From IMG/VR virus record IMGVR_UViG_3300033146_002524, positions 1 through 38,856 of that record: a DNA stretch of 38,856 nt; one strand, written 5' to 3'. The stretch comes from a virus. This document shows, piece after piece, positions 1-38,856 of the stretch (within the stretch, counting starts at the first letter, position 1; every line of letters begins with the position of its first letter). The position numbers and the translations under genes are program-made. Below the pieces are notes generated by a model. It was not told where the DNA came from. It saw only the letters and a list, made by a program, of their open reading frames with translations, and ran no database searches.

Positions 1-114
1 TTGATAACTATTTCACCTTCTACCGCCGTTCTTAACTCTTCGTCGTCTTCTAAAATAGTATCTAATACTACTATCTTTTGAATTTGCCTAAGCTGTTTAC
101 CTTCAGCGTTTGAA
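1..114. repeat. Terminal direct repeat, left copy (assembly closure)
   Basis: Bases 1-114 are identical to 38743-38856. A gene reads through the join in frame, so the repeat marks a circular or circularly permuted molecule. The short length fits an assembler overlap better than a biological long terminal repeat. A true 114-bp DTR cannot be excluded without read data. Confidence 0.95.
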
Positions 115-209
115 ATATCGCGGTTATCTTCCATAAAACGCGTTTCTTCTATAACTCTATCGGCGGGAATAGTTAAAGAAAAAAGAAGGTCTTTTAGTTT
201 CTTAGCCAT
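1..209 (-). CDS. 5' part of join-spanning virion-associated protein (166 aa in total)
   Basis: This is the N-terminal 69 codons plus two bases of a gene that continues in the same frame from base 38742 down to 38451 when the sequence is circularised. The ATG at 209-207 overlaps the end of the preceding DUF5675 gene by 8 bp. The N-terminus begins MAKKLKDLLF and is charged, with no signal peptide or membrane segment. I do not recognise the family. Its place between the DUF5675 gene and the collar-domain fibre suggests a fibre-linked or structural protein, which is inference from position only. Confidence 0.85.
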   Translation of the reverse strand, partial: MAKKLKDLLFSLTIPADRVIEETRFMEDNRDISNAEGKQLRQIQKIVVLDTILEDDEELRTAVEGEIVI

Positions 210-594
210 TTGAAACCCTTAACATAAAACTATCTAAATTTTTAGTAGCTTCAAGAAAGCGGTTAAACGCCTTAGTGCTATCTAATACCGCCCGCTTACC
301 GTTAAGATACCCTACACGCTCCCCAACGCCTATACAGCCCTCTAAGTCGTCTACAGTATTAGCAATGTGGAAAAGAATATAAGAACGCCCGTAAACATCT
401 TCTAAAATAAAAGTATTCGAGTGTTTTGCTGAACTGTAACGCTTACATTTGTAAAGCCCGCAAGGTATAGCCGATATATTCGGCTCGTTACCATTTTCGG
501 GGCGTTCGATAGTATTACAAAAAATACTACCTTCGTGCATTAAAACGCCGATACTTGCGTTTCTACCGCGTTCAAGTCTTTTAATTTCAAACAT
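202..594 (-). CDS. DUF5675-family protein, candidate lysis/cell-wall enzyme
   Basis: 130 aa from ATG 594. A GTG at 603 also keeps the frame, but AAAAGGTGG lies 6 nt before the ATG, and the ATG overlaps the preceding stop as TAATG, so 594 is preferred. The pattern is that of DUF5675: an N-terminal strand pair (FEIKRLERGRNASIGVL), a CNTIERPENG segment, then IPCGLYKC, and a conserved core FHIANTVDDLEGCIGVG at about residues 75-92. Known members occur in phages and prophages and have been suggested to act like L,D-transpeptidase-fold wall enzymes; that activity is not settled. The His, Asp and Cys of the core are candidate active residues. Its place after the tail fibre block suits a lysis or wall-penetration role. 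Confidence 0.7.
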   Translation of the reverse strand: MFEIKRLERGRNASIGVLMHEGSIFCNTIERPENGNEPNISAIPCGLYKCKRYSSAKHSNTFILEDVYGRSYILFHIANTVDDLEGCIGVGERVGYLNGKRAVLDSTKAFNRFLEATKNLDSFMLRVSNG

Positions 595-1247
595 TAGAAC
601 CACCTTTTAAAGTTTAAGAAAAAGAAGATAGTTTTAAAAATTTCCTTAGTTTCTTTTTTATGTAAAATTTTAGCTTCGTCCATAATTTCGCGAAGCTTAG
701 AAATACCGTCTTCTTCTGAAAATCTCATATCGTTAGTTTTTTCAATAAGAAGCCCCAAACCTTTACTCATTTTCTTCATATCATATTGCGACTTGTTGCG
801 AAGTCGTCGCCCTAAATCGCGTAAATATTTAATGTACTCTTCTTCACTCATTCGGTAAAAACCGTTTTTGTGCCGTGCTGTTTTTATTCTTTGAAGCGTA
901 CCAATAAATAAAGAATTGTGTAGGGTTCCATAAAAAGAACCCAGCGGGTGAATACAGGTTTTACAGTCGTCGTTATTGTGGTAATCTGTAGCACTTGACC
1001 AAATACCAAAAAAAGCAAGCTCCGAAGAGCTTTCTATAGAGTATAAAACATCTTCGGCTTTCTCCATAAAATCGGCGGTGTGCTTATGCTTTATATTTAT
1101 GATACGACTTACCATAAACGCGATATAAATAGTAAATAAAACAGAAATCAAGATGGATACTAAAACACTATCGTTCATAGTTTTTAAAACTAACTCTATC
1201 GCTTTAAGCGAAGAAACCGCTTCTGTAACAACCCCTACACTATCCAA
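594..1247 (-). CDS. Single-pass membrane protein, unknown (holin or lysis-accessory candidate)
   Basis: I place the start at TTG 1247, preceded by AAGGGGG at a 5-nt gap, just after the stop of the upstream gene. This gives 217 aa. An ATG at 1295 lies inside the upstream gene and has no such site; ATG 1178 is a second option. After about 24 residues comes a hydrophobic span (SVLVSILISVLFTIYIAFMV), then a basic stop (INIKHKH) and about 170 cytoplasmic-looking, charged, partly coiled residues. A Cys-x2-Cys (DCKTCIHP) lies mid-protein. I do not recognise the family. Its partner is the DUF5675 gene, with which it overlaps by 1 nt, so a lysis-linked role is plausible but unproven. Confidence 0.6.
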   Translation of the reverse strand: MDSVGVVTEAVSSLKAIELVLKTMNDSVLVSILISVLFTIYIAFMVSRIINIKHKHTADFMEKAEDVLYSIESSSELAFFGIWSSATDYHNNDDCKTCIHPLGSFYGTLHNSLFIGTLQRIKTARHKNGFYRMSEEEYIKYLRDLGRRLRNKSQYDMKKMSKGLGLLIEKTNDMRFSEEDGISKLREIMDEAKILHKKETKEIFKTIFFFLNFKRWF

Positions 1248-1258
1248 ACTAAGCCCCC

Positions 1259-1623: not shown

Positions 1624-4600
1624 CTATTTAAGAACTGTTACTACAAGTTTACCGCTTCTGTCGTTAAGCGTATCAGTCCACTCATTTACACGAACTCTTA
1701 CACTTACCGTATTAGCCGAAGAAACATAGCCTTCTAAATATACGAAATTCGTAGCACTTAAAGCGTCGCCGATTATTTCGTTAAGCGTAACGGCTACACC
1801 GTCACCAGCCGAAGCACCTGTTACAGTAACATCGTAATTGTAAGTTTGCCCCGAAGTCCACGAAGCATCTGTAGGCGTATAAGCTGTTTTTAAGTTGCCA
1901 CCGCCTACAGGTGCGTTTCTGCTCCAGTATCTTTGTTCAATAGCCCCGCCGTTTATAGCTGTCAAGTTTACGCCCGAAGCGACTGTTTCATATATAATAG
2001 TACAGTTGTCGGCTACGATATTAGCCGTAGTTACATAATCGCCGTTTATATTCTTGACAATATCAGTAATGTAAATAGCACAATTATTTATACCTTTGAA
2101 AGTTACAGTTTCGCCGTTATGCTGGAAAGAAACACCACTTTTAAAATAAATAGCGGTTCCGCTTGTGCTAATATTTATAACTCTATCGGCGTAGGTACTA
2201 TTCCACTTTCCTATATTTGCGGGCATACCTGTAAAGGTTAATCTGTTTACGGCGTTAATAGTTACTTCTCTGTCAGCTTGACCAAAAATAGGGTCTTCGT
2301 TATTTGTCAAAATAACTCTGTAGCCATTATTTACAAGAAAGTCGGCGGTAACTATATCGTTGTCTAAAACAGTAGCTACAGCGTCTTCATTGGTGTTTCT
2401 CCATTGCTTTTTAGTAGCACCGTAAACACTAAAACCGCGTTTGTCTTCGCTATCTCTTGTGTAAGCTCTTTCGTAGAAAATAGTACCGCCGTTAAGTTCG
2501 TACCAAGTAGGTAAAAACCCGCTAATACTTTCAACTCCTGTAAATCTTAAAACCAAGTTGTCGGCTCTTACACTATATTGACCGCTTACCGTATTTATGA
2601 AATCAATTCCAGTATTAGCTACACCGTCACCGATAAAATAGGCACTTGAAAAATAACAGTCTACACCTGTAACCGTCTTTTTACCTCTTACGGTTGTTGG
2701 CGTGCTATAGTTGTCGAAGTAGAAGTAGTTAGTAATTATTAAAAGCTCTTTTTCTACATCTTCAAGAGCTGTAATAAACTCTTCTTGTGTAGAAATAAAG
2801 GAAACTTCAGCGGGTAGAGTTGAACCACCGCCAGAACTTCTATTAGTGTTATCCCAGTACCCTAAAGGAATACCTACAAGGTCGCCAGTATTTCCGTTTC
2901 TGTTTTCAAAGTATTCTACTAAGCTATACTCTGAAGCGTTAAGAAAGTTAGTGCCACCAACAAAAGAAAGTAATGTTTTAAAACCTAACATTTTACCTGC
3001 TACTTCAATAGTGGCTAAGTTGTTAAAAACTTGACAATGGAAAAAGGTATCTGCAAAGCCTGTAACAGGTGTAGCACCTGTAAAGTTCAAACCTACACCA
3101 AAAATATGCTTAATCCCTACACCGCCTAAATCACCTTCTAAGTAAATAGTTTTTGTAGCAAAAATAGCCTGTACTGAAACATCTCTATAAAGCTCTAAAA
3201 ACTCTTCAGCGGTAGAAGCTAAAAAAGGCTTTTCGGCTGGAATTTGAGAAAGAACCCAGTCACGATAAGCTATAGAACGGGCTTTAGTCATAGCGTTATT
3301 AGTTTGTACTTCTCCATCTTTGAACTCTAAAAGACTTTGTAGCGTTAAATTGCCATCGTCGCCAACTACAGGGAAAGCACCGCTACGGGTAGCGTCTACG
3401 AAAATATCGTAAAGGTTTTTAATATCCCATTTTTCGCGGGCGTACCTTCCTAATCTCAATTCAGAAAGTTTTTTAGAAGATAGGTTTACGAAATAATCGG
3501 CGGGGGCTGTTCTACCTGTAGCCGAAGGAACTACCAAGATAGCACCTAAACACTTCATATCTACGATAAAGTCGGCGTAGTGTTCTAAAGTGTATTGTAG
3601 TTCGCTACCCATAAGGCTAAAAGTTTCGTATTTGTTGTTAATATTTCCTACTGAAGAAGTGGAAGGAATTATAAGCCATTGGTTCCCGTCTGTTTTTACG
3701 CCTTTATTTGCTTTGTCGGCTCTACTGTCGGGGCGTGCAAAAATGAAATACCAAACAGGGTTAGAAGTCTCTACAAGACCGCCCTGTAGAGCTTGAATAT
3801 AGACCTTAGAAGTATCTACACCACCTAAGAATTTCCAAAAAGCTTTATCGGTTTCGTCGGTCGCGTAGTCCTTAACTTCGTAAACTTCGTTACCATAATC
3901 AAGCATACTACTATTTACAAAAACCATCTTCGGGAATATTGCTGAATTTACATCGCTAGTGTCTTCATCTGTAGAATAAATCTCTACTAAAGCGTCGTCG
4001 TTTACAAGCGTAGAAGGGTACACTACAAGCTTGTCGCTACCTATCCAAGTGTCTAAGCCTTCGTAAACCCACAAACCTTCTCTTATGTTGCTCGCTTCTT
4101 TATCAATAGAAGACATTGTAAGACCGTGAATGTCAGTATTCATAAAAGCGTATCTATTAGAAGTAGGGTTTTTATAAAACACCGTTATCGGTGCTAAACC
4201 ATCAACCCACGCGTTAGTAATATCGAAAGTCTTATCTTCTTTCAGATACAAAACACCGAATTTATTAGAGAACCCCAACGCCGTAAAGTCGGCGGTCAAA
4301 ACTTCGTTAGCCTGCAACTCTGTAAAAACACCGTTAGAAAAATATCTTTGTGCTACAGTAGTTTTTACAGTAAGAACCTCTGTAGCTTCGTTAAAAAATA
4401 CTTCAACCTTGTTAGGGTGTAGAAAACCGTTAGCAATAGGGTCGGTAGCCAAAAGCGAACCGTTTTCTATTGCTACCTCTTCTACTTTTTCCAAAGTTGG
4501 AAGGTCTTTAGGGTTTTGTATTTCGTCTTTTGAAAGATTAGGCAAACGCTTAAGACCGTTAGAGTATTGTTGTTCTATAACAACTTCAGCGTTAATCTTT

Positions 4601-5886: not shown

Positions 5887-7362
5887 CTAGACGCTTTCGG
5901 TTACTGTAATATTTACGCTACTTGCTAATATTATTTTTTCGTATTTGCTAGCTTCTATACTTCCAGTAGTCCAGTTAGTAGACGGTGTAGTCGGGTTGGT
6001 TCCTGTAGCGACCTCTACAGTAGCGTTTAATACTCCATTTACAGAGTAAACCCCTGTAGCTATTCGGTTCGCTATTAAGTCGTCGCCTATTGTCATATTT
6101 CCGATAATTGCTGTAATATTTTCTACTATTTGTTTTTGCCAATCTACGGGTAAAACCTTATCACCTTCTATTGCCGTAATATCAACACGAACAAAAGCGT
6201 AAGTAGTTATAGGTCTATCAAAATAGATAGCTCTACTTTCACCAGTATTGTCTAAAATAGTTACACTTATACTACCGTTTGTATCTATCCCGTTACCTTT
6301 TGAAACCCAAATCATATCGGCTATTTTGTCGTCTTCACCTTCAGCACCTTCTACAACTACATAGATAGAGTGCGGTTTAAGACCATCTACAACGGTGTCT
6401 TTATCGTTTTCGTAAACTCTTACACTCTTGATACCGTCTATAGCGTTTTCGATATTTGAAGCGATAGCGTCGATATTTGCACCACCGCGAAACTTACTAC
6501 GCCGTCTTCTTATCCTTAAAGAAACATCGTCTTCAATATCATTACCTATAAAGCCGTTAGCATAATTTAAAACGCTATCAAACCCCGAAATAGTTGTAAC
6601 AATATTTTTTACAGAGCTTCGCGGTGCGGGTATTGCTCCCGTAACCGTATTTCTAACAATAAGCGGGGAACCTACTTTGTCAAGCGTAATTTTTACAAGA
6701 CCGCTAACGCTGAAGCTTACAAAAGATAGAGAAAGCAAGTCGAAACCGTCGGCGGTAATTTCGGCGGTAATTCCCGAAGGGATAAGCCCCGCCGAAACTT
6801 GACTATTTAACCAGCTTGAAAAATCAGCTTTAAAAACATCGCCCGAAGAGCTATTAGCGTAAGTTATCGTTTGTTCTCCCGCTGTAATCGTAATCTTACG
6901 CGTTATAACATCGTTATAGTCGTCTAACTTCACTTCAGCAAAAGACAAAACAGAAGAAGAAATAGTAAAATCATCTACAGCACCGTAAAGGTTCCCGTCG
7001 CTATCTGAAACTAAAGAGCCTTCAGCAATTACAACCCCGTCGGTTCCAAACGCCGTACAGAGTACGACCGTACCAGTAGCGTCTTTTCTTTTTATAGAAG
7101 TATATTTACATAGGTTATCAAGTCTTACGCCGTCGCTACTGTCAGGGTCTAAGGACAACCACAACTTTTCTAATTCAAGCCACGCCCTAACATAAGGCGT
7201 AGCCATAACGCCTACAAGTTGCCCTATAGTGCTTTCGGGGTTTCTTTTAATCTCCCCCCACTTAGCTTCTAAGTCGTTGTAAATATCGTTTTCTATATCT
7301 TCGCGTCGTTTAATTCTAAAGCCTTCGGGTGTCATTCCGAAGCCGTCGTTTATATCGCTCAT
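5887..7362 (-). CDS. Baseplate J-like wedge protein
   Basis: 491 aa with the features of the baseplate J family (gp6/gpJ wedge). The N-terminus MSDINDGFGMTPEGFRIKRR leads into DIENDIYNDLEAKWGEI, the typical opening helix. The central part has GAIPAPRSSVKNIVTTISGF and then NGFIGNDIEDDVSLRIRRRR, the conserved ETDEELRxR-like site. The C-terminal part has strand-rich repeats (ITAIEGDKVLPVDWQKQIV, IGDDLIANRIA). In the virion J dimers form the wedge ring around the hub. It follows the gp25-like gene by 1 bp, the standard order W-J. Confidence 0.9.
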   Translation of the reverse strand: MSDINDGFGMTPEGFRIKRREDIENDIYNDLEAKWGEIKRNPESTIGQLVGVMATPYVRAWLELEKLWLSLDPDSSDGVRLDNLCKYTSIKRKDATGTVVLCTAFGTDGVVIAEGSLVSDSDGNLYGAVDDFTISSSVLSFAEVKLDDYNDVITRKITITAGEQTITYANSSSGDVFKADFSSWLNSQVSAGLIPSGITAEITADGFDLLSLSFVSFSVSGLVKITLDKVGSPLIVRNTVTGAIPAPRSSVKNIVTTISGFDSVLNYANGFIGNDIEDDVSLRIRRRRSKFRGGANIDAIASNIENAIDGIKSVRVYENDKDTVVDGLKPHSIYVVVEGAEGEDDKIADMIWVSKGNGIDTNGSISVTILDNTGESRAIYFDRPITTYAFVRVDITAIEGDKVLPVDWQKQIVENITAIIGNMTIGDDLIANRIATGVYSVNGVLNATVEVATGTNPTTPSTNWTTGSIEASKYEKIILASSVNITVTESV

Positions 7363-10453: not shown

Positions 10454-12136
10454 TTAAGGGTTTACTAAAATATTGTCGTAAGGGTCAGCGTCGGGGCTTA
10501 TTCCTAACATTTCCATATTAGAAAGAGCGTCGGTGCTGTACCCTACTTGTCTTATAATTTCAGCTACTAAAGCTTCTTCGTTACCCTTAAAACTATCAAT
10601 ATTGATAGTAAGATTTTGTAAACGGTCGCCGTATTCTGTTTTACCTTTTTCGCTTAGAACTGTTAATAAGTTGTTGAAAAATAAATCATCAATACCAAAT
10701 TTATTATTTCGTGCTACTTGTTGGGCTTGTGCTTGTGTAGAAGTTGCTGAAGAACCCCCGCCCATTCCAAAAGTTTGCGGTGTAACATTTACAAGGTCTA
10801 CGCCCTGTATTCCCATTATACTTTTCATTTCGTCTATAACAGTACCGAAGTCACGCGAAAAGTCTTCTTCTGAATAATCATCACCATAAATTTTTGACGC
10901 TAAGAAAGCCATAGGCTTAAGCGTAAGAGCCTTGATAGTTTCTAACATTGTATCAGTAATAACGAACGCTAAAGACTTCGCTATTTCTTTACCTGTCATA
11001 TCGGCGTAAGACTTGAAATAGTCCATAATATCAGCCCACGCTCTTTTATATTCGTCGGCATCTAAGAAGTTACCTATAACACTATCACCACCATTTAACC
11101 AAGTAATAATTTCGTCGAAGATAAGGTATATAAGACCTATAACCGCTAAAAGCCCCAAGAACGGTAAAAGCATAGTAGCCCCTAAAGTCTTAAGCATAGA
11201 AAGCCCCGCTACAATACCACGACCACCAGCGAAGAAGCCCGAAATAGTGCCAAGACCAGTAAGCAAAATAGGAATTAAAGCCGTGAAGCCACCCATAGTA
11301 AGAATAAATCTTTTTGTAGCGTCGTCTGACCTTCTAAACTGTTTTGTCATAAAAGTAAAGAAGTCCATAACCTTAGTAGCAAGCGGTAAAAGAATTTTAC
11401 CCCACTCTTCAGCCATTGCTTTTCTTGCTTCCATAAAACGGCGTTCTGAATTTGCGTAACCTTCTCGCGTTCGTGCGTAATCACCTATAGCGTTCTTACT
11501 CTGCTCTGTTGCAAGTGTAAGAGTAGCGTAAGCTTTAGCCTGTCTTTCGGTCGCGAAAGTCATACCCTGTGAAGCTAATAAGGCTACACGCTCTTTTACA
11601 TCTTTTTCAAGAATAGCGATACCTAAAGACTTCATAGCTTCACGCTCGCCAAGTAAGCCCGAAGTTAAAGCCCGCGAAGCTCTTTCGGCTCCACCTTCTA
11701 AATTTTGGAAAGAAGCAAGGTCTACGGCTAAACGGTTCACTCTATCACTCATAGCTAACGCGTCTTTTTGACTAAATCCAAAACCTGTAAGCATATCACC
11801 AGTAGCCGAAAGATATTTTTGAGCCGTAGAATTTGCTAAGTCGAAATCTTCAGCGAAGCTTTTAGCGGTAGCCGAAGCTTCACCGCGTAGGTTATTATAA
11901 ACCGCCGTAAATTTTCCTTCGGTTTCCTGTGCTTCAGAAGCCGACTTAATCATAGCCCGACCAGCTAAAGTAATCGGTAGAGTAAGGGCTAAAGAAAGCT
12001 TAGCCCCCATCATTTGCATTTCACGCCCGTACTTCATAGCCTGTTGTGAAACTTCGCCTAATTGTGCTTTATAAGCGTTTAGGTTAGTTTCATCAACATT
12101 ATAACCTAATCGCGTAACTACTTCGCGTAAAACCAT
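10454..12136 (-). CDS. Tail tape measure protein
   Basis: 560 aa, starting at ATG 12136 in TAATG overlap with the end of the frameshifted chaperone product. The N-terminal half is long helices rich in Ala, Lys and Glu (NAYKAQLGEVSQQAMKYGRE, then ATAKSFAEDF). A hydrophobic region at about residues 285-355 (ALIPILLTGLGTISGFF, TMLLPFLGLLAVIGLIYLIF) matches the membrane-active segment of tape measures. The C-terminus is mixed with a Gln/Ser linker. Using the usual rule of about 0.15 nm per residue, the tail would be near 85 nm; this is an estimate. Confidence 0.9.
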   Translation of the reverse strand: MVLREVVTRLGYNVDETNLNAYKAQLGEVSQQAMKYGREMQMMGAKLSLALTLPITLAGRAMIKSASEAQETEGKFTAVYNNLRGEASATAKSFAEDFDLANSTAQKYLSATGDMLTGFGFSQKDALAMSDRVNRLAVDLASFQNLEGGAERASRALTSGLLGEREAMKSLGIAILEKDVKERVALLASQGMTFATERQAKAYATLTLATEQSKNAIGDYARTREGYANSERRFMEARKAMAEEWGKILLPLATKVMDFFTFMTKQFRRSDDATKRFILTMGGFTALIPILLTGLGTISGFFAGGRGIVAGLSMLKTLGATMLLPFLGLLAVIGLIYLIFDEIITWLNGGDSVIGNFLDADEYKRAWADIMDYFKSYADMTGKEIAKSLAFVITDTMLETIKALTLKPMAFLASKIYGDDYSEEDFSRDFGTVIDEMKSIMGIQGVDLVNVTPQTFGMGGGSSATSTQAQAQQVARNNKFGIDDLFFNNLLTVLSEKGKTEYGDRLQNLTINIDSFKGNEEALVAEIIRQVGYSTDALSNMEMLGISPDADPYDNILVNP

Positions 12137-13253: not shown

Positions 13254-14324
13254 TTAGTAAAGTGCTACGCCGTTAATAACCGCTTTGTGCATAGCGACGC
13301 TTTTGTAATATTTAAAAGTCGTTCTACTGTAAACGCGTGTTTCTTTTTCAGTAGAAGGAATTTCAGAAGCCTTAGGCGAAGTTACCTCGTAACCACCTGT
13401 ACGCTCGCCGTCTTCATTAAAAGCGTGTTCGGTGACAATACCGCGTGAAATAGCATCGTTAAAGACTTCTCTAATAGCATTGTCTACAAGACCAATACCG
13501 TTGTCGTCGTAAGCTACTTTAGGCTTCTTTTTGAAGAGCGATAAAACAGCTTCTTTAATTCGTGCTTCTATCCAATCGTCGGCTATTACTTCGTCGATAA
13601 AAGTAGCCCCTGTAGTACCTTCTTGAATAAGACGAAAACCGCCTTTATCAACAAAAGTATTTACATTCAAAAGACGCGTCGCGTTCTCTTCTGTAGTAGA
13701 AAGTTTTGAAGGCGTTACACCGATAGCGTCTTTAAACTTTACAGTATAAGAACCAATAGGCAACGAAATAAAAGCACCAATAAAAGCACCTTCAAGCTCT
13801 TCTGTTTCAGCGTCGGCGTGGTAAAATACAGCGGTTCTTTCTCGCCCTTTTTCTTTTACATACTTACCCAAACCGTCACCAGCTCCACCAATATCACCTA
13901 AAGCCGTTTCGGCATAGATAAAGAGTGTTTTAGAAACTTCCGACCATTCCGCGATAGTTTCAGCATCTGCTAAAGTGTTTGTACTTACAGCGAAGCAATA
14001 GAACCCGTTAAGGTCGCCTTTAATCGCATCTAAAGAAGCTTCTAAAGAAGCGTCGTCGGTAGCGGTTTGCCCTACAGCCATTTCTTTAGGCGATACTTTT
14101 GCACTAAACAACTTAGTAGCGAACTTATGAACATTTGTACCAGCTACAAAGTCTACGGCTACTTCGTCAAGACTACCGTAAGAACGGCTACGAAAAAAAG
14201 AAGTAGCGTCGCTTGCTAAACCACTTTCGTTTACATAGCAAGGAATACCGAAGCTTTTTACAGCTACAGCCCCGCTTTCTGTTGTTATCGTAACATCTAC
14301 GATATTACTTACATTATTCGACAT
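13254..14324 (-). CDS. Tail sheath protein, DUF3383-like
   Basis: 356 aa. The start (NIVDVTITTESGAVAVKSFG, then IPCYVNESG) matches the DUF3383 opening, followed by YGSLDEVAVDFVAGT and a Rossmann-like middle (FYCFAVSTNTLADAETIAEW). The C-terminal part has VTPSKLSTTEENATRLL, then NVNTFVDKGGFRLIQEGTT and an IDEVIADDWIEARIKEAVLS helix, the conserved sheath C-domain. This gene is the main evidence that the tail is contractile. Confidence 0.85.
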   Translation of the reverse strand: MSNNVSNIVDVTITTESGAVAVKSFGIPCYVNESGLASDATSFFRSRSYGSLDEVAVDFVAGTNVHKFATKLFSAKVSPKEMAVGQTATDDASLEASLDAIKGDLNGFYCFAVSTNTLADAETIAEWSEVSKTLFIYAETALGDIGGAGDGLGKYVKEKGRERTAVFYHADAETEELEGAFIGAFISLPIGSYTVKFKDAIGVTPSKLSTTEENATRLLNVNTFVDKGGFRLIQEGTTGATFIDEVIADDWIEARIKEAVLSLFKKKPKVAYDDNGIGLVDNAIREVFNDAISRGIVTEHAFNEDGERTGGYEVTSPKASEIPSTEKETRVYSRTTFKYYKSVAMHKAVINGVALY

Positions 14325-15642: not shown

Positions 15643-15667
15643 TTTCGATTTTCCCTTAACAATCCCT

Positions 15668-15723
15668 TATTCAATTACTATTCTATTCAATTCTATTCAA
15701 TATCTATTCAATATCTATTCAAT
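15668..15723. repeat. Five TATTCAAT iteron-like repeats
   Basis: TATTCAAT occurs at 15668, 15684, 15694, 15705 and 15716. The last four are spaced 10-11 bp, one helical turn. A 25-bp part (15680-15704) matches 36720-36744 with one mismatch. Confidence 0.75.
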
Positions 15724-16961: not shown

Positions 16962-17906
16962 TTAAATACCTTCAGCGATAGCCATAGTAAGCGGGTAGCG
17001 TACAGTCATACCAGCCGTTTTAGCGTAACAGTTTGTAAGCCAAGCCAAGTTTTTAGGCTGTGGTGGCATCTGTTTAAACTCTAAAGGAATTTCAAGAGCC
17101 AAGTAAGAAATATCGTTTACAAAAGCGAACAAACAGTTTACGGGTGCGGTTCCACCCGACGGTGCGGGGTTCATATCACCAAGCTCTGAAACAAAATCTA
17201 CAGTAAGATTTTCGTAGTTTTCTTTGAGAACTGAAAGAATTGTTTTGTTGTCGTAAAGAATAGTATTCTTAAGTTTTGACCAACGATTAGCGGAAACTAA
17301 AAGCGTGTCGGCTTCTTCTTTTCCGTTTGTCGCATTGAAAACCATATCAAGAGTGCCTACACAATCGTCGTAAATCTGCTTAGGCGTTGCGGTAGTCCAG
17401 TCACCAGTAATAGCCGAACCTACGGAAATATTAGGGTTATAAAAAAGCCCTACAATATCAGCTTCTTCATCACCAAGCCACGCGATTTTTTCTAAAAGCT
17501 CTTCCCAAGCTCTACGAACCGCAATAGCTTCTTCTGAAGGTAGGTTCGTCTTCCCAGCCTGTGACGCTTCTACATCGTCTACAGAATATTCGTAAGCATT
17601 ACCGAAAGCCTTAACCTTAGCTACAACCTCTTTTTTACCAACGGTAGCAAGTGGTAGGTTATCGGCGTAAGACTGAATAAGTTTCATCATTCCGAAGCGT
17701 TCAATAACTTTGTAAGTGTGGTTCTTTGCGAAAGAAGGCACATCGTAAGAAATTGGTAGAATTTCACGGGCTTTAAGGTTTCGTAGCGGTGCTTTGTAAA
17801 CCTGTTTACGAACATAGGTAAGCTCACGCTCTGTAAAAGCGGTCGTTACAGAGTCCATATTGTAGCCGTCCATTTTTGGCAACTTGATAGTTTTTTTCTT
17901 TTTCAT
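16962..17906 (-). CDS. Major capsid protein, DUF2184-like HK97 fold
   Basis: 314 aa. The start has a basic segment then NMDSVTTAFTERELTYVRKQ, followed by VYKAPLRNLKAREILPIS. The word TYKVIERFGMMKLIQSYADN and the region VVAKVKAFGNAYEYSVDDVE match the DUF2184 family of major capsid proteins. The axial domain includes LLVSANRWSKLKN, and the protein ends KTAGMTVRYPLTMAIAEGI. It follows the cement protein by 24 bp. The shell would be an HK97-type icosahedron. Confidence 0.85.
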   Translation of the reverse strand: MKKKKTIKLPKMDGYNMDSVTTAFTERELTYVRKQVYKAPLRNLKAREILPISYDVPSFAKNHTYKVIERFGMMKLIQSYADNLPLATVGKKEVVAKVKAFGNAYEYSVDDVEASQAGKTNLPSEEAIAVRRAWEELLEKIAWLGDEEADIVGLFYNPNISVGSAITGDWTTATPKQIYDDCVGTLDMVFNATNGKEEADTLLVSANRWSKLKNTILYDNKTILSVLKENYENLTVDFVSELGDMNPAPSGGTAPVNCLFAFVNDISYLALEIPLEFKQMPPQPKNLAWLTNCYAKTAGMTVRYPLTMAIAEGI

Positions 17907-23562: not shown

Positions 23563-23590
23563 AATATAACTTTACAAATTCTAAAGTAAA
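23563..23590 (-). promoter_or_regulatory. Possible promoter between terminase and portal
   Basis: TTTACT (23590-23585) and TATATT (23568-23563) separated by 16 nt, the same hexamers as the two early promoters (which have 18). The -35 overlaps the last codons of terminase. The spacing is short, so this is a weak call. Confidence 0.35.
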
Positions 23591-25536: not shown

Positions 25537-25989
25537 CTAAAGTTCGCAACCGCAATTAGGACAACACTTAGTAGGCTTCTCTTCGTTGTCCTCTAAAGGG
25601 TCGCTATCTTCGGTATCGTTAAGCAAGTCGGGAACATCTAAGCCCCAGTTCTCCAATAAGTCGGCTTCATAATCTACGCTTAATAAATCGTAATCCCATT
25701 CACCAAAGGCTACATTATCTTTTACAATAAACTCTTTTTTCTCTTCTTCTGTAAGGCTATCGGCTAAGATAATATCTACAAACTCTAAGCCAGCTTCTTT
25801 ACACGCTGAAAGTCGCATATTACCACCTAATACGGTGTAATCGTTGTCTACGACTATAGGGCGTATCTCTAACATTTTAGGAAAATCTTTTATAGATTTA
25901 ACTAACTTTGTAAATTTGTCGTCTTTAATTGTTCGCGGGTTATTCTTGTTTCTTTTGAGCTTTCCAATACTAACCTTTTGAATATCCAT
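25537..25989 (-). CDS. ParB/Srx-domain protein with C-terminal zinc knuckle
   Basis: 150 aa. Residues 1-95 are the ParB N-terminal fold: VSIGKLKRNKNNPRTIKDDK, KMLEIRPIVVDNDYTVLGGN with MRLSACKEAG, the GGNMR box that binds a nucleotide in ParB-type CTPases. Then EEEKKEFIVKDNVAFGEWDY. The end is acidic and closes with CCPNCGCEL, a likely zinc site. In other phages this protein often lies next to a DNA methyltransferase; none is present here. Known roles include nuclease-like and DNA-binding activity; here it heads the packaging operon, 16 bp before terS. Confidence 0.8.
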   Translation of the reverse strand: MDIQKVSIGKLKRNKNNPRTIKDDKFTKLVKSIKDFPKMLEIRPIVVDNDYTVLGGNMRLSACKEAGLEFVDIILADSLTEEEKKEFIVKDNVAFGEWDYDLLSVDYEADLLENWGLDVPDLLNDTEDSDPLEDNEEKPTKCCPNCGCEL

Positions 25990-26338: not shown

Positions 26339-26890
26339 TTAAACCTCTTCTTTCAATCTTTCTTTAAGATTGTCTACGACCGCTACAGGTAAGCAAGAGT
26401 TTTTAACATTGCAAATTCTTACTACATCGTCTTCAAGTTCCACCCAAACATCTAAGAGCTGTTTAGTGGTATTTATCGAACTTAAAACGCCTTTCACTTC
26501 TCTTACAAGAGTAGAAACCTTTTTCTTTTTTTCTTCTAAGTTTCTGAAAGCTCTTACAAATTCATTATGCTTTTTAAAGCTTTTTCTGACAAGAATAGCA
26601 ATAGTAGAATATTCTGAATACTCTGTAGGGAACGGTAAACTTTCTTCAAGTTTCAAATAAACTGTACTTGTTTCTGAAGAAGTAACTTTAAATTTTCCAA
26701 GAAACTGTAGATGTTTTTTAGGAACATCTTTTAGTCTACTTTGGTCTTTCCCGAAAAATTCTTTATAGACTTCACCGCCCCAGTATGTTTTAAACTTTTC
26801 TTCAGTTTTAGAAAGCCCTTCTGTTTGCTTTTGAGTAATTACCCGTAAGAGCTGTCTTCTTTCTTCTTCGTTTAGTTTTTTACTTTTCAT
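26339..26890 (-). CDS. Nmad5-like protein (nucleotide modification associated domain)
   Basis: 183 aa. The layout resembles the Nmad5 family: a basic N-terminal helix (LNEEERRQLLRVITQKQT), a conserved centre VYLKLEESLPFPTEYSEY, a coiled helix, then REVKGVLSSINTTKQLLDVW followed by an acidic turn and SCLPVAVVDNLKERL near the end. The word V..VL.S..TTKQLL.VW.E and the final LPV..V..L are the features I recognise. Nmad domains are so named because of gene neighbourhoods with DNA-modifying enzymes; their reaction is not established. No modifying enzyme is seen nearby. Confidence 0.5.
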   Translation of the reverse strand: MKSKKLNEEERRQLLRVITQKQTEGLSKTEEKFKTYWGGEVYKEFFGKDQSRLKDVPKKHLQFLGKFKVTSSETSTVYLKLEESLPFPTEYSEYSTIAILVRKSFKKHNEFVRAFRNLEEKKKKVSTLVREVKGVLSSINTTKQLLDVWVELEDDVVRICNVKNSCLPVAVVDNLKERLKEEV

Positions 26891-29081: not shown

Positions 29082-29357
29082 TTATCTGAAGACATAGCTG
29101 AAGCCGTCTTTATCAAGTACAAAAGCCTTTAGACCTTCAATAGTGCAGCTATAGGCTTTTATATCGTGTTTAACTCTGTTTTCGGGGCTAAACATATCTT
29201 CACTACGCTTTCTTCTACCTTTGCCGAACTTAAAGCCCAAGAAGGCTATTTTAAGCTCTCCTGTTAATACTTTGCTACGAAAATACACAATAGTAATTTC
29301 TTCTTTCTCCTTTATCAAGTTTTCGCAATCGCTTACAACTCTGAAAAATTTATACAT
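29082..29357 (-). CDS. Small protein, 91 aa, unknown
   Basis: I prefer ATG 29357, with AGAGG 8 nt upstream, over the GTG at 29366. Sequence MYKFFRVVSDCENLIKEKEE then IVYFRSKVLTGELKIAFLGF, a basic turn KFGKGRRKRSE and a final strand. It could bind nucleic acid through the basic turn. Overlaps the RusA-like gene end. Last gene of the early operon. No family recognised. Confidence 0.6.
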   Translation of the reverse strand: MYKFFRVVSDCENLIKEKEEITIVYFRSKVLTGELKIAFLGFKFGKGRRKRSEDMFSPENRVKHDIKAYSCTIEGLKAFVLDKDGFSYVFR

Positions 29358-31826: not shown

Positions 31827-32390
31827 TTAAACTTCTTTCTTTCTAAAGCTTCTACCGTTAAAAGTGATAACCCCGCCTACCTCTTCGGTTCTGCTGAAGA
31901 CCGAAACACCTAAAAAGGCTTTAAGACTATCGGCGGTGTCGTTTGCTATTAGTATCGTTGTTGCGTTAGGGTTATCGTAACGCTTGTCGATTATATAATT
32001 AAGTTCGCGGTTTTCAAACTCTGAACCTTTGCGAACCTCTAAGGCATCTATAATAAGAATATCGACCTTAATAATATCTTTTATAAAACCCCTGTAATTA
32101 TTATCTTTTTCATATCTACCCATCAGCCCCTCAAAAACCTCATAGGCTTTCAGGTACTTCACACGCTTTTTATTTGTAAGAGCGTAACCGCTTAGCGTTG
32201 TGGCTATTTGAGTTTTACCAGTTCCACGCTTGCCGATAAAGAAAAGAATACCACCACCCAAAACGATAGGCTTAAGCCTTTCGTAGCGTTCCGCCCACTC
32301 TTCACACTTGCTATCTACGGGTCTAAATTCAGAGTGTCTTTGTGGAAACCCCGAAGTAGTAAGCTTTCTTGTGATGCTATTTAAAATCAT
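31827..32390 (-). CDS. DnaC-like helicase loader ATPase
   Basis: 187 aa. Walker A GKRGTGKT (residues 53-60) in ILFFIGKRGTGKTQIATTLS, Walker B KVDILIIDAL (108-117), then GSEFENRELNYIIDKRYDNP and a sensor-like TTILIANDT. This is the DnaC/IstB type AAA+ layout. It is short because the N-terminal helicase-binding part is small. It would load the host replicative helicase at the phage origin together with the initiator encoded just before it. Confidence 0.85.
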   Translation of the reverse strand: MILNSITRKLTTSGFPQRHSEFRPVDSKCEEWAERYERLKPIVLGGGILFFIGKRGTGKTQIATTLSGYALTNKKRVKYLKAYEVFEGLMGRYEKDNNYRGFIKDIIKVDILIIDALEVRKGSEFENRELNYIIDKRYDNPNATTILIANDTADSLKAFLGVSVFSRTEEVGGVITFNGRSFRKKEV

Positions 32391-32407
32391 TTTAGCCTTT
32401 CCTTTTA

Positions 32408-33310
32408 CTAAATCTTGAGTTCTAAATCTGTAATATCGTCTTCGCCGAACATTTCACCGACGGGGGGCGGTGCTGAATTACCGCCCCGACCAGTAAACCC
32501 GTTTTTAGGGAAAACCGACTTCCACGCGTTATCTGTAGCGTCATTTAAAGCGTTTACCCAGCTTTCAGCGTTTAGACCTTTAAGCTTATTAAGTAGTGTA
32601 GTGGTTCCGCGTTCCGTAAGCGGTGCTTTCATACTTCTACGCTTTTCGGCGTATTCTCTAAAAGCTTCAAAAACCTTTTCGTCTAAAACTCCGAACTCTT
32701 CTTTAATTGCTCGTTTAGCCGTTCCTTGAATATCTGTCTTTCCCTTTCTTGCTCCTGTAGCTGAAGAAGGCTTAGCGTCGTCTTTTGGTTCTTTAACATT
32801 TTCTTCTTTTGGCTCTTCAGTCTTCTTTTCGACTTCACCACCCCAACAAACGCCTTCAGAAACCGAACCGTTACAGTCGTTAGCGTTACTATTGTGTTCA
32901 ACTTCTTTAAGTTCATTTTTGCCAAAAAACCCCCCACCGTTAATTTTTATAAATAAGTCATAATAAGAACTTGCTTCTACTTTTCTTAAAGCACCTACAA
33001 CAATAGGCTTTTTAGAGTGAAGCCCGTTAGGAAACTGAAACTTCAAAAACCCCGTAACGATTATTTTACCGTCTTCAGTTTCAATAAATTTAGTTCCAGC
33101 TTCAAAAGTTTTACTTACTCTTAGCTCTCTTTTAAGTTCATCAATAGAACCACTAAAGCCAGTATAGAAATTTAAAACTTTCCAGTTACCGCCCCAAACG
33201 CCTATAGAATTACATTTATCTATAATAAATAGATACGCTAATTTTGCTTCGGGTGTAAGCTCTGAAAAATACAAGCTATCCCATTTTTCGGTTTCAGTAT
33301 AACGCTTCAT
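32408..33310 (-). CDS. Replication initiator-like protein
   Basis: 300 aa. The N-terminal 110 residues (TETEKWDSLYFSELTPEAKL, AYLFIIDKCNSIGVWGGNWK, then VTGFLKFQFPNGLH) are the winged-helix domain seen in phage replisome organisers. A low-complexity Lys/Glu/Pro linker follows (about 155-195), then a C-terminal helical domain FREYAEKRRSMKAPLTERGT with LLNKLKGLNAESWVNALNDA and a DNAWKSVFPKN end, a common C-terminal part of initiators that bind the loader. It stands directly before the DnaC-like gene. Origin binding within this gene or in the repeat regions is inference. Confidence 0.75.
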   Translation of the reverse strand: MKRYTETEKWDSLYFSELTPEAKLAYLFIIDKCNSIGVWGGNWKVLNFYTGFSGSIDELKRELRVSKTFEAGTKFIETEDGKIIVTGFLKFQFPNGLHSKKPIVVGALRKVEASSYYDLFIKINGGGFFGKNELKEVEHNSNANDCNGSVSEGVCWGGEVEKKTEEPKEENVKEPKDDAKPSSATGARKGKTDIQGTAKRAIKEEFGVLDEKVFEAFREYAEKRRSMKAPLTERGTTTLLNKLKGLNAESWVNALNDATDNAWKSVFPKNGFTGRGGNSAPPPVGEMFGEDDITDLELKI

Positions 33311-33734: not shown

Positions 33735-34322
33735 TTAAAATGGTAAATCGTCTTCAGAAGGAACACCACCGCCGAGCCTATTACCGCCCGCGTTCCCTGT
33801 ACCCGAAGAAGGTTTTACAGTAATAGGCTCGTAAATAAATTCTGCTGTTTTTGCTTCGGTATTTTCTGTAAGTTCCTTATAAGTCTTCTTCGTAGCATAA
33901 TCTAAGAAGTGTTTTATATTGAACTTATATTTTACCTTACCGTCGTTTCCTAAATACTCTTTACGCTGAAGCGAAACGGTAATTTTACCGCCCTCAACTT
34001 CGGGTGAATAAAATTCTTCTCTTCCGTTAAACATACGCTTAGCATAAGAAACCGTAGGAATACCAAGAAGTGCGAAAAGGCTATCTAACCTACGCTTTTC
34101 GTAGTGTTCGTTACCGTTGTTTTGTTTGTAATAAACTTTAAGAAAGTCGGTTTTCACTCCGTTATCAGTTTCAAAAGCGATATTTACAAACTTAGCCCCG
34201 TTCTGTGAACTTTCAAAAGTAAAGCGTTTAATTTCACCGCTATAAACTCCACTTTGAGAAATGTAATTACCGCCGTCGGCTTCTAAAGCCCCGTTAAAAT
34301 CAGTTTGAAATACTACAGACAT
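33735..34322 (-). CDS. Single-stranded DNA-binding protein-like
   Basis: 195 aa. The strand order GNYISQSGVYSGEIKRFTFE, AKFVNIAFETDNGVKTDFLK, then KFNIKHFLDYATKKTYKEL suggests an OB fold. A Gly/Asn-rich linker and an acidic tip SEDDLPF end the protein; DDLPF-type tips are the partner-binding tail of SSB proteins. It lies between the exonuclease and the replication genes, the usual place in Sak4-type recombination sets. Confidence 0.75.
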   Translation of the reverse strand: MSVVFQTDFNGALEADGGNYISQSGVYSGEIKRFTFESSQNGAKFVNIAFETDNGVKTDFLKVYYKQNNGNEHYEKRRLDSLFALLGIPTVSYAKRMFNGREEFYSPEVEGGKITVSLQRKEYLGNDGKVKYKFNIKHFLDYATKKTYKELTENTEAKTAEFIYEPITVKPSSGTGNAGGNRLGGGVPSEDDLPF

Positions 34323-34324
34323 CT

Positions 34325-35449
34325 TTAATTCTCCTTCTTTTTAACTAAAGACGGTTTCGGTGTTTTTCCTTCAGAAATCGCGTCTTTAAAAACTTCGTTA
34401 AATTCTTCTTTAGTTGCTTTTTTATTTGCTTCTTTACCGTAAACCGCTTTCATTAAAGCCGATTTTGACAAAGAAGAAACTTTTGCAAGTTCGTAAGGCT
34501 CAACTCCGTAACGCTCTAAAGCTATTTCTTCAGCTTTTACAGCGTCAATTTTAACGCGTGGCGAACCGAATTTTAAGCCCCACCCAGCTACAGCGTTTTC
34601 GTCTTCTGCTAATTTTGCTTCAGCGATAGCTTTTAAGTCTTTAGCCCAGTCTTCAAGAAGTTTAGCATAAGCAACAAGACCGCCCAGCTTTTCGGGTGAA
34701 AGTTTGGAAATATCAGTTTTAACAGTAATACCTTTAAGTAGCTCTTTACCTTCGGGAATTACTTTTTTACTCTCTGTAAGGCTTTTATTTCGTGCTTTAC
34801 AGGAAAGTCTTTTAGTACACCAACCGCAATAAGAATTTACTTCGGGTTCAAACTCTTCACGGTTAGAAAGCTTGTAAACCATTTCATCGAAAAACTTTTG
34901 TGTTTCTTCAAGCTCAAAAGTATTAGAAGTAGCTTTTTTCTCTCTACCATAAACCGCGTAAATATCAACTTTTTTACAGTCGTAAGCTTGCATAGCTCCA
35001 AGACCATAAACTTTTAATTGTGCTTCGAAATCTCGTTCTACACCGCTTTTATAGTCGATAACTATTACAGTATCACCCTTGACCGCCAAAACATCGGCTG
35101 TACCTGTTACCGCTGTCATATCAGAAGTAAAAGCTAAAACTTCTACTTCAGTTTCAGCGTCTTTAATACCAAGATTGTAAGACGCTAAAATAGACATAAT
35201 TTTAAAAAAGGCAAAATCAACATTATTACGCTCTTCACTTGTAAGCTTCTCGTGAAACTCACTACGCTTAGTAATATCTCGACCGCCTTTTTTGTCGGCT
35301 AAACCTATTTGGTATTCAAGCTCTTTATGTTGCAAGGTTCCACGAAAAGCGGGGCTGTTCTCTCCATCTAACCCCGTTTGGTCAGTTTCGTAGTGAATAC
35401 ATTTCGTCCACGCGGGAAACGAAGACGGCGAAAAAATATGATGGCTCAT
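34325..35449 (-). CDS. DUF2800/Cas4-like PD-(D/E)XK exonuclease
   Basis: 374 aa. The start IFSPSSFPAWTKCIHYETDQ and the word FRGTLQHKELEYQIG are typical of this family. The catalytic core is GTADVLAVKGDTVIVIDYKSG, with Asp and Asp-x-Lys, followed by EAQLKVYGLGAMQAY, the QLxxYxLG motif. Cysteines near 210-220 (YCGWCTKRLSCKAR) recall the metal-cluster segment of AddB/Cas4 nucleases, here with three Cys close together. It would resect DNA ends for annealing by the Sak4-like protein. Confidence 0.85.
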   Translation of the reverse strand: MSHHIFSPSSFPAWTKCIHYETDQTGLDGENSPAFRGTLQHKELEYQIGLADKKGGRDITKRSEFHEKLTSEERNNVDFAFFKIMSILASYNLGIKDAETEVEVLAFTSDMTAVTGTADVLAVKGDTVIVIDYKSGVERDFEAQLKVYGLGAMQAYDCKKVDIYAVYGREKKATSNTFELEETQKFFDEMVYKLSNREEFEPEVNSYCGWCTKRLSCKARNKSLTESKKVIPEGKELLKGITVKTDISKLSPEKLGGLVAYAKLLEDWAKDLKAIAEAKLAEDENAVAGWGLKFGSPRVKIDAVKAEEIALERYGVEPYELAKVSSLSKSALMKAVYGKEANKKATKEEFNEVFKDAISEGKTPKPSLVKKKEN

Positions 35450-35451
35450 AG

Positions 35452-36519
35452 TTAAGCCCCTTTCTGAATTGCTTTAAGTTGTTCAAGATTATTATAAAGT
35501 CGGTTTAAGCGTCCTTCGGGAATAGTAGCAAGCTCTTCACCTTCTTTTAGTGCAAGTTTAGAGCGAAGAAACGCTGTAGCAACTTCAAGACCGCCCAACG
35601 CGTCGGCTATAACTATCGCTTTGTCGGATTTGTTATTGTCTACTACAATATCAACGGCGGGCGGTGTTGGTTCGGGAATATCAAACGTAGGAATAGTCGA
35701 AGTGCTTACAGGTTCACTTACAGGAACCGAAGCCGTTTCTACAGGTGTAGAAGTTACAGGAACCGAAGAGGGAACCCCTACAGGTACTACCGACTCTTCA
35801 GAAGTTTTTACAGATTGACCAACCACCGAACCGACAACTTTGCCGAACTCGTCGTATTTAGGCAACGCTGGGGCTTCTTCGTCTTCGTCGTAAGCTACAA
35901 CACAATCGCTTATATAAGCTAAGTCATTTGGTACAACATCAGCGGGAAACATACCCAACGGGCTTTTTACCGTGTTTTTGCCGTTGTTTTTAACTTCAAG
36001 CCCGTAATTACCGTCGGCTACTGTAGTCTGAAGAACGATAGTAAAAAGAGCTTCAAAACCTATAGTATTATCTACCATTTTACCCGCTGTTTTCGCTTTA
36101 GTTCCGCCCATTCCGTCGTCTTCAATATGTGACAAAAAGAAAACAGTAATAGAAGAAGGTAGTTTTTTAACTTCATCGCTAATAGCTACGAAGTTTTGGG
36201 CTATCTCTGTAAATTTTTCGTAGCCTTTAATGTGGGCTTCACGAACCATTTTCATACCCGCTACAAATTGGTAATCGTCAATAACCACGAAACGCTTACC
36301 CGTATCTTTCGCATACTGTAAGGTTTTTGTAATACCTTCTACAGTGTCTGTTACGGCTAAATTTCCACCGCTACCACCGTAATACTTCTTTTTCCAACCG
36401 CGAAACGGTAACGCTTTACCGTAAACATTGATAATAACAGTTTCTTCAGCGGGTAGGTTTCTAATAGAGAAACTTTTACCCGTTCCCGAACCGCCTAAGA
36501 TTAAAATAGCGTTTGCCAT
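35452..36519 (-). CDS. Sak4-like RecA-fold recombination ATPase
   Basis: 355 aa. Walker A GGSGTGKS (residues 9-16) and Walker B RFVVIDDYQF (76-85) in an AAA_24-type core, followed by ITVFFLSHIEDDGMGGTKAK and GKMVDNTIGFEALFTIVLQT. These match Sak4-type phage ATPases that help strand annealing with a partner SSB. A long Pro/Val/Ser/Thr-rich linker (about 235-290) precedes a small C-terminal helical domain (LATIPEGRLNRLYNNLEQLK), which may bind the SSB or nuclease. Both partners are encoded next. Confidence 0.82.
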   Translation of the reverse strand: MANAILILGGSGTGKSFSIRNLPAEETVIINVYGKALPFRGWKKKYYGGSGGNLAVTDTVEGITKTLQYAKDTGKRFVVIDDYQFVAGMKMVREAHIKGYEKFTEIAQNFVAISDEVKKLPSSITVFFLSHIEDDGMGGTKAKTAGKMVDNTIGFEALFTIVLQTTVADGNYGLEVKNNGKNTVKSPLGMFPADVVPNDLAYISDCVVAYDEDEEAPALPKYDEFGKVVGSVVGQSVKTSEESVVPVGVPSSVPVTSTPVETASVPVSEPVSTSTIPTFDIPEPTPPAVDIVVDNNKSDKAIVIADALGGLEVATAFLRSKLALKEGEELATIPEGRLNRLYNNLEQLKAIQKGA

Positions 36520-37390: not shown

Positions 37391-37402
37391 TTTAAAGCCT
37401 TT

Positions 37403-38425
37403 CTATTTTGCTTTTATGATATAGTTAAATACTGTAAACGGTGGTAAGTTTTCGTGTGAAACCGACGCGGTTCTATCTTCGGGCGTTTCAGTAGCTGTTA
37501 AAGTGTGACCTTTAACGCTGTAAGTAGTTTCCGTTCTATTGTTGTCGCCGTTTTCGTTGTTGTTATTCCCGCCTTCTTTGTTTCCACTCTCAGCGTAGCG
37601 ACTGTTTATATAGTCGTGCTTGTGGTTTGGCATTTCTTCAAGACTTAAAGAAACCCGCTCTTCACCGCCTGTAGTACCTAAAGCGTGGGTAGGCGAAACA
37701 CCCATAGGGAAAGCACCTCTTAAGTCGGGTATCCCAAACTCTGAAGTTCCCGTACTACCATTGTCGTAAGTGTTGCCTATTACAGCGTAAAGAGCTGAAT
37801 AGTCGCCCGTTTTGCTGTAGTTTCCACCCTTACAAAATAGCCAAGTGTTATCGGGTAGAGTATCACCAGCGAACGGCATAATAGCCCCTATCGGTGTAGG
37901 TGCTGAAAGACTGCTATTTAAAACATTTAAAGCGTCTTTTACCGTGCTACCGCTAACACTACTATCGTTTTCAACTTCTGAAGCTTTAAGGTTGTCAAGG
38001 CGTGAAGTATTACTACTAATATTAGAAGCGTTTGTAGTAATATTTGAAGCATTAGTAGAAATATTCGACGCGTTAGTAGAAATATTTGAAGCGTTATCTG
38101 TAATATTGTCGGTATTAGCGTTTATTTTTGTAAGGTTTTCGGCTACATCAGAAGCAATATTAGCGAAAGCGGTTCCCAAATTAGAAATATCGGTTTCGTT
38201 TGCCGCAATTCGTGCTTCGTAGTCGTCGCTCTGCTGTTCAAGATAAGCAACCCAGCGGGCTACTAAGTTGTGTAGCCAGTTAAAATATTGTGCTGGTGGT
38301 TCTTCTCCACCGCTCCAGCCGTTAGTTTTTTCACCTTCCGAAGGTTCTACTATATCGGCTACGGTATTTTCGTAGTCAGTATCTACCGCAAAACGCGGTT
38401 TTTTAGTAGGTTTTGTTACAGCCAT
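37403..38425 (-). CDS. Tail fibre with phage collar domain
   Basis: 340 aa. N-terminal part PTKKPRFAVDTDYENTVADI with NGWSGGEEPPAQYFNWLHNL is typical of fibre attachment regions. A coiled middle has a heptad unit (NISTNAS) repeated about five times. The collar domain follows: PIGAIMPFAGDTLPDNTWLF, then YDNGSTGTSEFGIPDLRGAF and GVSPTHALGTTGGEERVSL, with a His-rich EMPNHKHDY and a C-terminal LPPFTVFNYIIKAK. Collar-domain fibres form short tail fibres that hold on to the cell. Confidence 0.88.
   Translation of the reverse strand: MAVTKPTKKPRFAVDTDYENTVADIVEPSEGEKTNGWSGGEEPPAQYFNWLHNLVARWVAYLEQQSDDYEARIAANETDISNLGTAFANIASDVAENLTKINANTDNITDNASNISTNASNISTNASNITTNASNISSNTSRLDNLKASEVENDSSVSGSTVKDALNVLNSSLSAPTPIGAIMPFAGDTLPDNTWLFCKGGNYSKTGDYSALYAVIGNTYDNGSTGTSEFGIPDLRGAFPMGVSPTHALGTTGGEERVSLSLEEMPNHKHDYINSRYAESGNKEGGNNNNENGDNNRTETTYSVKGHTLTATETPEDRTASVSHENLPPFTVFNYIIKAK
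38018..38107. repeat. Exact 21-bp periodic repeat coding the fibre heptads
   Basis: AATATT recurs at 38018, 38039, 38060, 38081 and 38102, an exact 21-bp period. Each unit codes seven residues of the coiled shaft. Changes in copy number would keep the frame. Confidence 0.8.
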
Positions 38426-38450
38426 TTAAAGCCCCTTTGTAAAATTATAA

Positions 38451-38856
38451 TTACCAAACTGAAGAAAATTCACCACCAACGCCCGCCCCCGCGTGGTAAT
38501 CACCAAACCCCTTACCAACACCGCCCGAAAACACAAAAGGGGTATCTGAAGAAGTTGTAAAAAATACACCAACGCCACCAGTTACAACACGCTTAAACTG
38601 CAAAAAAGTTTCTCGCGTTACCGTACCACCTGTAATGTGAACCCGAATTTTAGCGTTTCCAATTTCATCTATACGGTAGGAAACTGGGTTAAAAATTTTT
38701 TCAATAATCATTGTAAGCGGTTCATATTGACCGCTTGAATTATTGATAACTATTTCACCTTCTACCGCCGTTCTTAACTCTTCGTCGTCTTCTAAAATAG
38801 TATCTAATACTACTATCTTTTGAATTTGCCTAAGCTGTTTACCTTCAGCGTTTGAA
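38451..38856 (-). CDS. 3' part of join-spanning virion-associated protein
   Basis: This is the C-terminal part of the 166-aa protein that starts at 209. Bases 38743-38856 duplicate 1-114, so the unique part here is 38451-38742. An internal ATG at 38711 is not the true start, because the frame stays open upstream across the join. The last 45 residues are rich in glycine and aromatic residues (GGVGVFF, VFSGGVGKGFGDYHAG, ending SSVW). Such composition is common in phage fibre tips and adhesive surfaces, but no family is recognised. The collar-domain fibre gene follows 25 bp downstream. Confidence 0.85.
   Translation of the reverse strand, partial: SNAEGKQLRQIQKIVVLDTILEDDEELRTAVEGEIVINNSSGQYEPLTMIIEKIFNPVSYRIDEIGNAKIRVHITGGTVTRETFLQFKRVVTGGVGVFFTTSSDTPFVFSGGVGKGFGDYHAGAGVGGEFSSVW
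38743..38856. repeat. Terminal direct repeat, right copy
   Basis: Exact copy of bases 1-114. Removing one copy leaves a circle of 38,742 bp. Confidence 0.95.

Follow-up and report, generated by a model that had tools for sequence, protein, structure and literature searches.

Loss of recognition sites as an escape from restriction is a textbook property of phages, as a rule reported for one or two sites, and Staphylococcus phage K and coliphage T7 are the textbook examples of GATC-poor genomes. The Helicobacter host of a further phage, KHP30, is rich in type II systems. In a survey of almost 4000 viral genomes, elimination hardly occurred except at orthodox type II sites, was stronger in non-temperate phages and, for type II, affected 7.1% of phage–site pairs (Rusinov et al. 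2018; PMC6286503). Coliphage myoviruses with a DNA hydroxymethylase hardly avoid sites at all – 2.4% avoided as against 55.8% – the enzyme making avoidance unneeded (PMC6286503).

The phage genome described here – IMG/VR record IMGVR_UViG_3300033146_002524, a single contig of 38,856 bases, the whole of which is referred to as the window – is an extreme example, in which the mechanism is known and the breadth unusual. It resembles the phages of Rusinov et al. (2018; PMC6286503) in that palindromic type II sites fall below 0.1 of expectation, in an apparent lack of signs of lysogeny among the proteins searched and in the mostly silent nature of the changes; it differs in that 21 of 43 testable specificities, among them at least nine to ten that are independent and palindromic, have been removed from one genome. 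The published threshold for elimination (observed below 0.1 of expectation, with an expectation of at least 15) was applied here with Markov expectations in place of the published compositional-bias formula. By this measure 58 of the 89 sequences compared (all of at least 7 kb: the window and 88 others, mostly from one phage group) have eliminated none of the listed specificities, while the window, with overlapping definitions counted, leads with 21, followed by 11 and then 8; shorter sequences have fewer testable sites, so the count favours longer ones, though for phage K and T7 39–40 kb were used. Phage K shares with the window a complete lack of GATC (0 against 75 in 39 kb) and T7 is likewise GATC-poor (6 against 141), but each has eliminated only four listed specificities, one of them a plain tetramer, whereas the window has lost six plain tetramers with expectations above 15, plus CATG. 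KHP30 has reduced ACGT (5 against 58), as does the window, and is low also in GTAC, TCGA, GGNCC and GTNNAC; yet only one of its specificities passes the threshold, the reduced set is a different one, and the searches made revealed no relationship between the two phages.

The first 114 bases of the window are identical to the last 114, which indicates that the genome is complete, and circular or permuted, with about 38,742 unique bases (about 38.7 kb). Almost all genes lie on the minus strand and base composition differs markedly between the strands (G 6518, C 8649, A 11047 and T 12642 on the plus strand). By its predicted proteins this is a complete myovirus-type (contractile-tailed) phage, probably of virulent lifestyle; no integrase was seen among the proteins searched, a set that covers only part of the small open reading frames. 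The principal features are:

1..114, left copy of a direct terminal repeat of 114 bp, where the assembly of a circular or permuted genome overlaps itself
5887..7362, minus strand, baseplate wedge protein (PHROG 6)
10454..12136, minus strand, tape measure protein (PHROG 991)
13254..14324, minus strand, tail sheath of the contractile tail (PHROG 205)
16962..17906, minus strand, major head protein (PHROG 264), 70% identical in the nearest relative
18377..19579, minus strand, head maturation protease (PHROG 530)
20237..22258, minus strand, Mu gpF-like head morphogenesis protein (PF04233, PHROG 324)
22255..23526, minus strand, portal protein (PHROG 146)
23581..25116, minus strand, terminase large subunit (PHROG 38), the query for finding relatives
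31827..33310, minus strand, replication module overall (PHROG 50/678), comprising the next two
31827-32390, minus strand, DnaC-like loader
32408-33310, minus strand, O-like initiation protein
33735..36519, a block comprising the next three
33735-34322, minus strand, ssDNA-binding protein
34325-35449, minus strand, DUF2800 / PD-(D/E)XK nuclease
35452-36519, minus strand, Sak4-like protein
38743..38856, right copy of the terminal repeat

An earlier note, made by reading the letters alone, had claimed that GATC, CATG, GGCC, CCGG and GCGC are absent, and exact counts are indeed zero for all five. Palindromes counted on one strand cover both strands, and expectations were drawn from a second-order (trinucleotide) Markov model, from a synonymous codon shuffle over 36 kb of coding sequence, and from base composition. 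GATC is expected 45, 64 and 134 times under these three nulls, so that the hundred or so put forward in the note is of the right size for base composition but high against the other two. Markov and codon-shuffle expectations are 14 (13.9) and 43 for CATG, 60 and 39 for GGCC, 92 and 47 for CCGG, and 106 and 52 for GCGC; zeros against Markov values of 14–106 are thus anything but counts close to expectation. The note's list nevertheless fell short: it lacked ACGT (1 against 105–127) and CTAG (5, four of them within coding sequence, against 82–157), together with the interrupted and degenerate sites GANTC, GCNGC, GTYRAC, CCNNGG and CCWGG. Pooled, the seven tetramers number 6 against about 600 under the second-order Markov model and, within coding sequence, 5 against 432 under the synonymous shuffle. 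Each of eight 5-kb blocks holds 0–2 such sites where 62–85 are expected; every stretch of about 5 kb being equally depleted, the loss is not limited to one module.

Among longer motifs GANTC occurs 3 times against 64 expected (44 under a third-order Markov model), GCNGC 2 times against 78 (61), GTYRAC not at all against 29 (22), and CCNNGG once against 50 (26); the third-order expectations still lie far above the counts, so the conclusion for these four is unchanged. Weaker cases are CCWGG (0 against 16, or 11 under the third-order model) and GGWCC (0 against 5–14). ACGT, CTAG, GATC, GCGC, CCGG, GGCC, GANTC, GCNGC, GTYRAC, CCNNGG, CCWGG and others fall under the published threshold, while CATG has a Markov expectation below 15. 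We regard elimination as firm for the seven tetramers and for GANTC, GCNGC and GTYRAC, as likely for CCNNGG, and as probable for CCWGG and GGWCC. The few surviving sites are:

35685..35688, the sole ACGT (motif start from the scan)
3956..3959, CTAG, with others starting at 5887, 5948, 12560 and 28590
17851..17855, GANTC, with others starting at 18435 and 35792 (all GASTC; GAWTC is at 0)
29145..29149, GCNGC, with another starting at 38202
24445..24450, the sole CCNNGG

Palindromes as such are not the target. AGCT (275 against a Markov expectation of 328) and CGCG (102 against 117) stand near expectation, and TTAA, AATT, TGCA, GTNAC, CTWAG, GGNNCC and GCNNGC are likewise retained, which shows that specificity is what matters. 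The earlier note had also counted TCGA and GTAC among the frequent palindromes, but here its description holds less well, for both are mildly reduced, to about half to two thirds: TCGA 67 against 131 by Markov and 62 against 94 by codon shuffle, GTAC 80 against 181 and 78 against 118. Both being cut by a third to a half without elimination, some of the overall deficit may come from a general dislike of palindromes, a point against the reading of restriction given below.

One explanation would be that the phage lacks these words by accident of its codon usage, its composition or its strand bias, and there is some substance to it: strong strand bias and skewed codon context are enough for a plain codon shuffle to yield many deficits in non-palindromic words. 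However, nulls that keep codon usage and protein, nulls that keep trinucleotides, and permutations of the same composition all fail to account for the loss. An equal loss of non-palindromic tetramers of like composition, the outcome that the earlier note named as speaking against avoidance, is not seen: non-palindromic words made from the same letters as the avoided tetramers stand at 0.94–0.98 of expectation, and the depletion is therefore not due to composition. With both strands counted, the lowest non-palindromic tetramer, CTGC, lies at 0.33. Relatives with the same proteins, moreover, retain the sites. The codon shuffle, the permuted tetramers and the comparison of orthologous sites given below together refute this explanation, which we find scarcely credible.

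The loss was achieved mostly by synonymous substitution, at positions where relatives carry the sites. The codon choice for aspartate, to which the note had drawn attention, is as it described: before a codon starting with C it is GAC in 54 cases and GAT in none, while before one starting with A it is GAT in 190 of 271 (GAC in 81). Likewise none of the 167 internal ATG codons is preceded by C. In 22 genes orthologous to those of relatives L004/L124, 59 avoided sites of the relative fall at residue-identical positions; the window keeps 1 of these, where its own codon usage predicts 15.2, while for control motifs 85 are kept and 74.8 predicted. The corresponding comparison with L007 gives 0 of 23 kept against 4.8.

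Avoidance is lineage-specific and graded within the phage group. The nearest relatives – L004/L130 (3300035698_017681), L007 and L131 (3300002026), with terminases 60–61% identical – are like the window in their reduced ACGT, GCNGC, GGNCC, CCWGG and GGCC, but unlike it they hold GATC, CCGG, GANTC and GTYRAC near expectation (GATC 69/81 in L004 and 99/88 in L007). L007 and L131, two contigs from one metagenome (IMG 3300002026), share one smaller fingerprint: GGCC 1/33, ACGT 4/55, GCNGC 1/60, CCNGG 1/39 and GGNCC 3/29, with GATC, CATG, CCGG and GANTC untouched; CATG, near expectation in these two, is absent from the window. L004 has a partial version of this set and, outside it, CATG at 33/55 and CTAG at 37/55; the window has the L007/L131 set with GATC, CATG, CCGG, GCGC, CTAG, GANTC, GTYRAC and CCNNGG added. 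Farther out in the group the sets differ again: GATC, CATG, CGCG and GCNGC are lost from L060, while in L099, which lies in Neisseria sicca, GATC, GGCC and GGNCC are reduced. A megablast of the first 25 kb of the window gave no match in the phage collection, the terminase was below 27% identity in the best rows against that collection, and when viral contigs were scanned for the Sak4-like protein no relative came up.

Six-frame searches of the window for the N6/N4, C5 and D12 methyltransferase families (PF01555, PF00145 and PF02086) found none. Two genes deserve mention:

25537..25989, minus strand, ParB-N domain protein (PF02195; PHROG 498, positions 33-180 of 633; PADLOC MTase_II, 9-127 of 436)
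26339..26890, minus strand, Nmad5-like protein (nucleotide modification associated domain 5; PF18757, E=1.2e-7, profile 121-202 of 206)

The ParB-N protein matches only the N-terminal part of ParB-methyltransferase fusions and has no methyltransferase domain, PF01555 included. A DUF4942 / N6-methylase-like protein is encoded by L007, in which GATC is kept; that protein and the ParB-N stump of the window may bear on avoidance, in a way that is suggestive only. The Nmad5-like match, found in the window alone among 35 related records, possibly hints at some DNA modification. The earlier note's view that the phage escapes by having no sites, and not by modification alone, accordingly fits the lack of a recognisable methyltransferase, with the reservation that this weak Nmad5-like candidate is present.

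What, then, removed the sites? We consider it very probable that the genome has experienced long selection by several orthodox type II restriction systems, in one host or a succession of hosts. Each cuttable site would lower survival on entry into a restricting cell, so that site-free mutants would be kept; because four-base sites would otherwise be present in hundreds of copies, even the last of them would matter, and counts would reach zero and not merely fall. A phage without a methyltransferase of its own would depend on having no sites. The host or hosts would carry enzymes against ACGT, CTAG, GATC, CATG, GGCC, CCGG, GCGC, GANTC, GCNGC and GTYRAC, and perhaps also against CCNGG, GGNCC and CCNNGG, a number higher than expected for one bacterial strain. 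The earlier note had likewise named type II restriction, and on its side are a loss that is palindrome-specific, lineage-specific, genome-wide and synonymous; host and enzymes we infer, since our searches yielded no host, CRISPR spacer or matching enzyme. A scan of genome contigs with an alignment of nine terminase sequences brought only distant prophage relatives, the best in Lentisphaerae and Treponema at 36–40% identity, and within the class of the Lentisphaerae genome terminase matches reached 43% at most. The head-protein profile found nothing close in 393 genomes from the phylum to which one of the Treponema genomes belongs; among 394 genomes from its order none gave a spacer-like match to the second half of the window (the best reached 81% over 52 bases), and the first half had no match at E 1e-6 in 374 genomes.

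That several successive hosts, or a broad host range, contributed in place of one heavily armed host, the avoided set being their sum over time, is a serious possibility, if one we would place slightly below even: the two closest relatives have in common a smaller set nested within it, as if specificities had been added over time, and the distant L060 and L099 have sets of their own. Yet all the eliminated sites are now at or near zero, whereas the site of an abandoned enzyme should drift back, and most of the pressures must consequently be recent or current. Mutational decay under host methylation, with 5-methylcytosine especially raising C-to-T change and no selection by nucleases, is a different matter. 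Several avoided sites are common methylation targets, and one-step C-to-T products are abundant (1.54 of base expectation for GCGC, 1.43 for GGCC); but set against other one-step neighbours the deamination products are inconsistent (CCGG 1.19/1.60, ACGT 0.39/1.47, GCGC 1.54/1.48). GATC, CATG, CTAG, GANTC and GTYRAC are usually adenine-methylated sites, and these, with no C-to-T drive, are equally lost. Decay would moreover spare some copies, and would not bring six or more sites to zero together. The substitution products thus lend deamination no support, and we judge decay very improbable. That the Nmad5-like protein makes a protective base modification, word loss having another cause, is in our estimation highly improbable: the match at 26339-26890 speaks for it, but it covers no more of the family profile than its C-terminal part, is absent from the other 34 related records, and site avoidance is scarcely seen in phages whose DNA is generally modified (PMC6286503).

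Within the reading of selection by restriction, a bolder version is that one host, or a tight guild, deployed at least ten four-to-six-base type II systems at once and was answered by sequence alone, relatives showing the stepwise, nested additions. This we hold to be doubtful. If true, the restriction complement of an uncultured host could be read off the genome as off a negative image. Apart from this version, a complete genome with so many independent palindromes removed, and with nested subsets in its relatives, sets a measurable limit to phage adaptation by silent change alone and allows the restriction enzymes of the host to be predicted: enzymes against the ten sites from ACGT to GTYRAC listed above, and none against CGCG, AGCT, TTAA, AATT or TGCA.

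A minor observation concerns further words. A greedy search against the codon-shuffle null returned many asymmetric or degenerate ones (CCWGA, CMTCC, CTCRG and others); because codon context and strand bias are not taken into account by such a shuffle, these extra words were rejected, most of them shrinking under the third-order Markov null. Three may be tentative candidates: CATCC/GGATG (0 against 34 by the codon null and 10–12 by Markov), CASTG (3 against 46 and 20–24) and CTSAG (1 against 40 and 13–22).

A distant relative of the window, L060 (IMGVR_UViG_3300037455_000485), has a strong avoidance set of its own: GATC (0/38, observed/expected under a Markov model), CATG (0/24), CGCG (0/21), GCNGC (0/30) and CTNAG (1/26) are low, while ACGT, CTAG and CCGG are retained. 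Two further relatives, the contigs L007 and L131, derive from one metagenome (IMG 3300002026), are complementary in gene content and share one avoidance fingerprint, that is, the set of restriction-type sites reduced or eliminated; possibly they are fragments of a single phage.

Across the whole window CATCC/GGATG is absent from both strands, CASTG occurs three times and CTSAG once, a deficit that shrinks under a third-order Markov null and that may reflect avoidance of asymmetric or type IIS sites.

Three proteins are considered here.

Window 25537-25989, minus strand: ParB-N domain protein, 150 aa (PHROG 498, PADLOC MTase_II; N-terminal part only)
Window 26339-26890, minus strand: Nmad5-like protein (matches the Pfam profile over its C-terminal half, E 1.2e-7)
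L007 3356-4846, plus strand: DUF4942 protein, C-terminal part N6-methylase-like

The match of the first is confined to the N-terminal part of these ParB-methyltransferase fusion families; the methyltransferase part is missing, as it is at L007 6945-7544. The Nmad5-like protein had no counterpart in any of the 34 related phage records searched; sensing by the Tmn defence system has been linked to Nmad5 of Dhillonvirus (PMC11846954). L007, carrier of the DUF4942 protein, retains GATC, GANTC and CCGG sites.

Within the structural operon of the window, some 490 bases (15643-16128) are without a plausible gene; the equivalent position in the relative L004 (9417-9517) spans about 100 bases.
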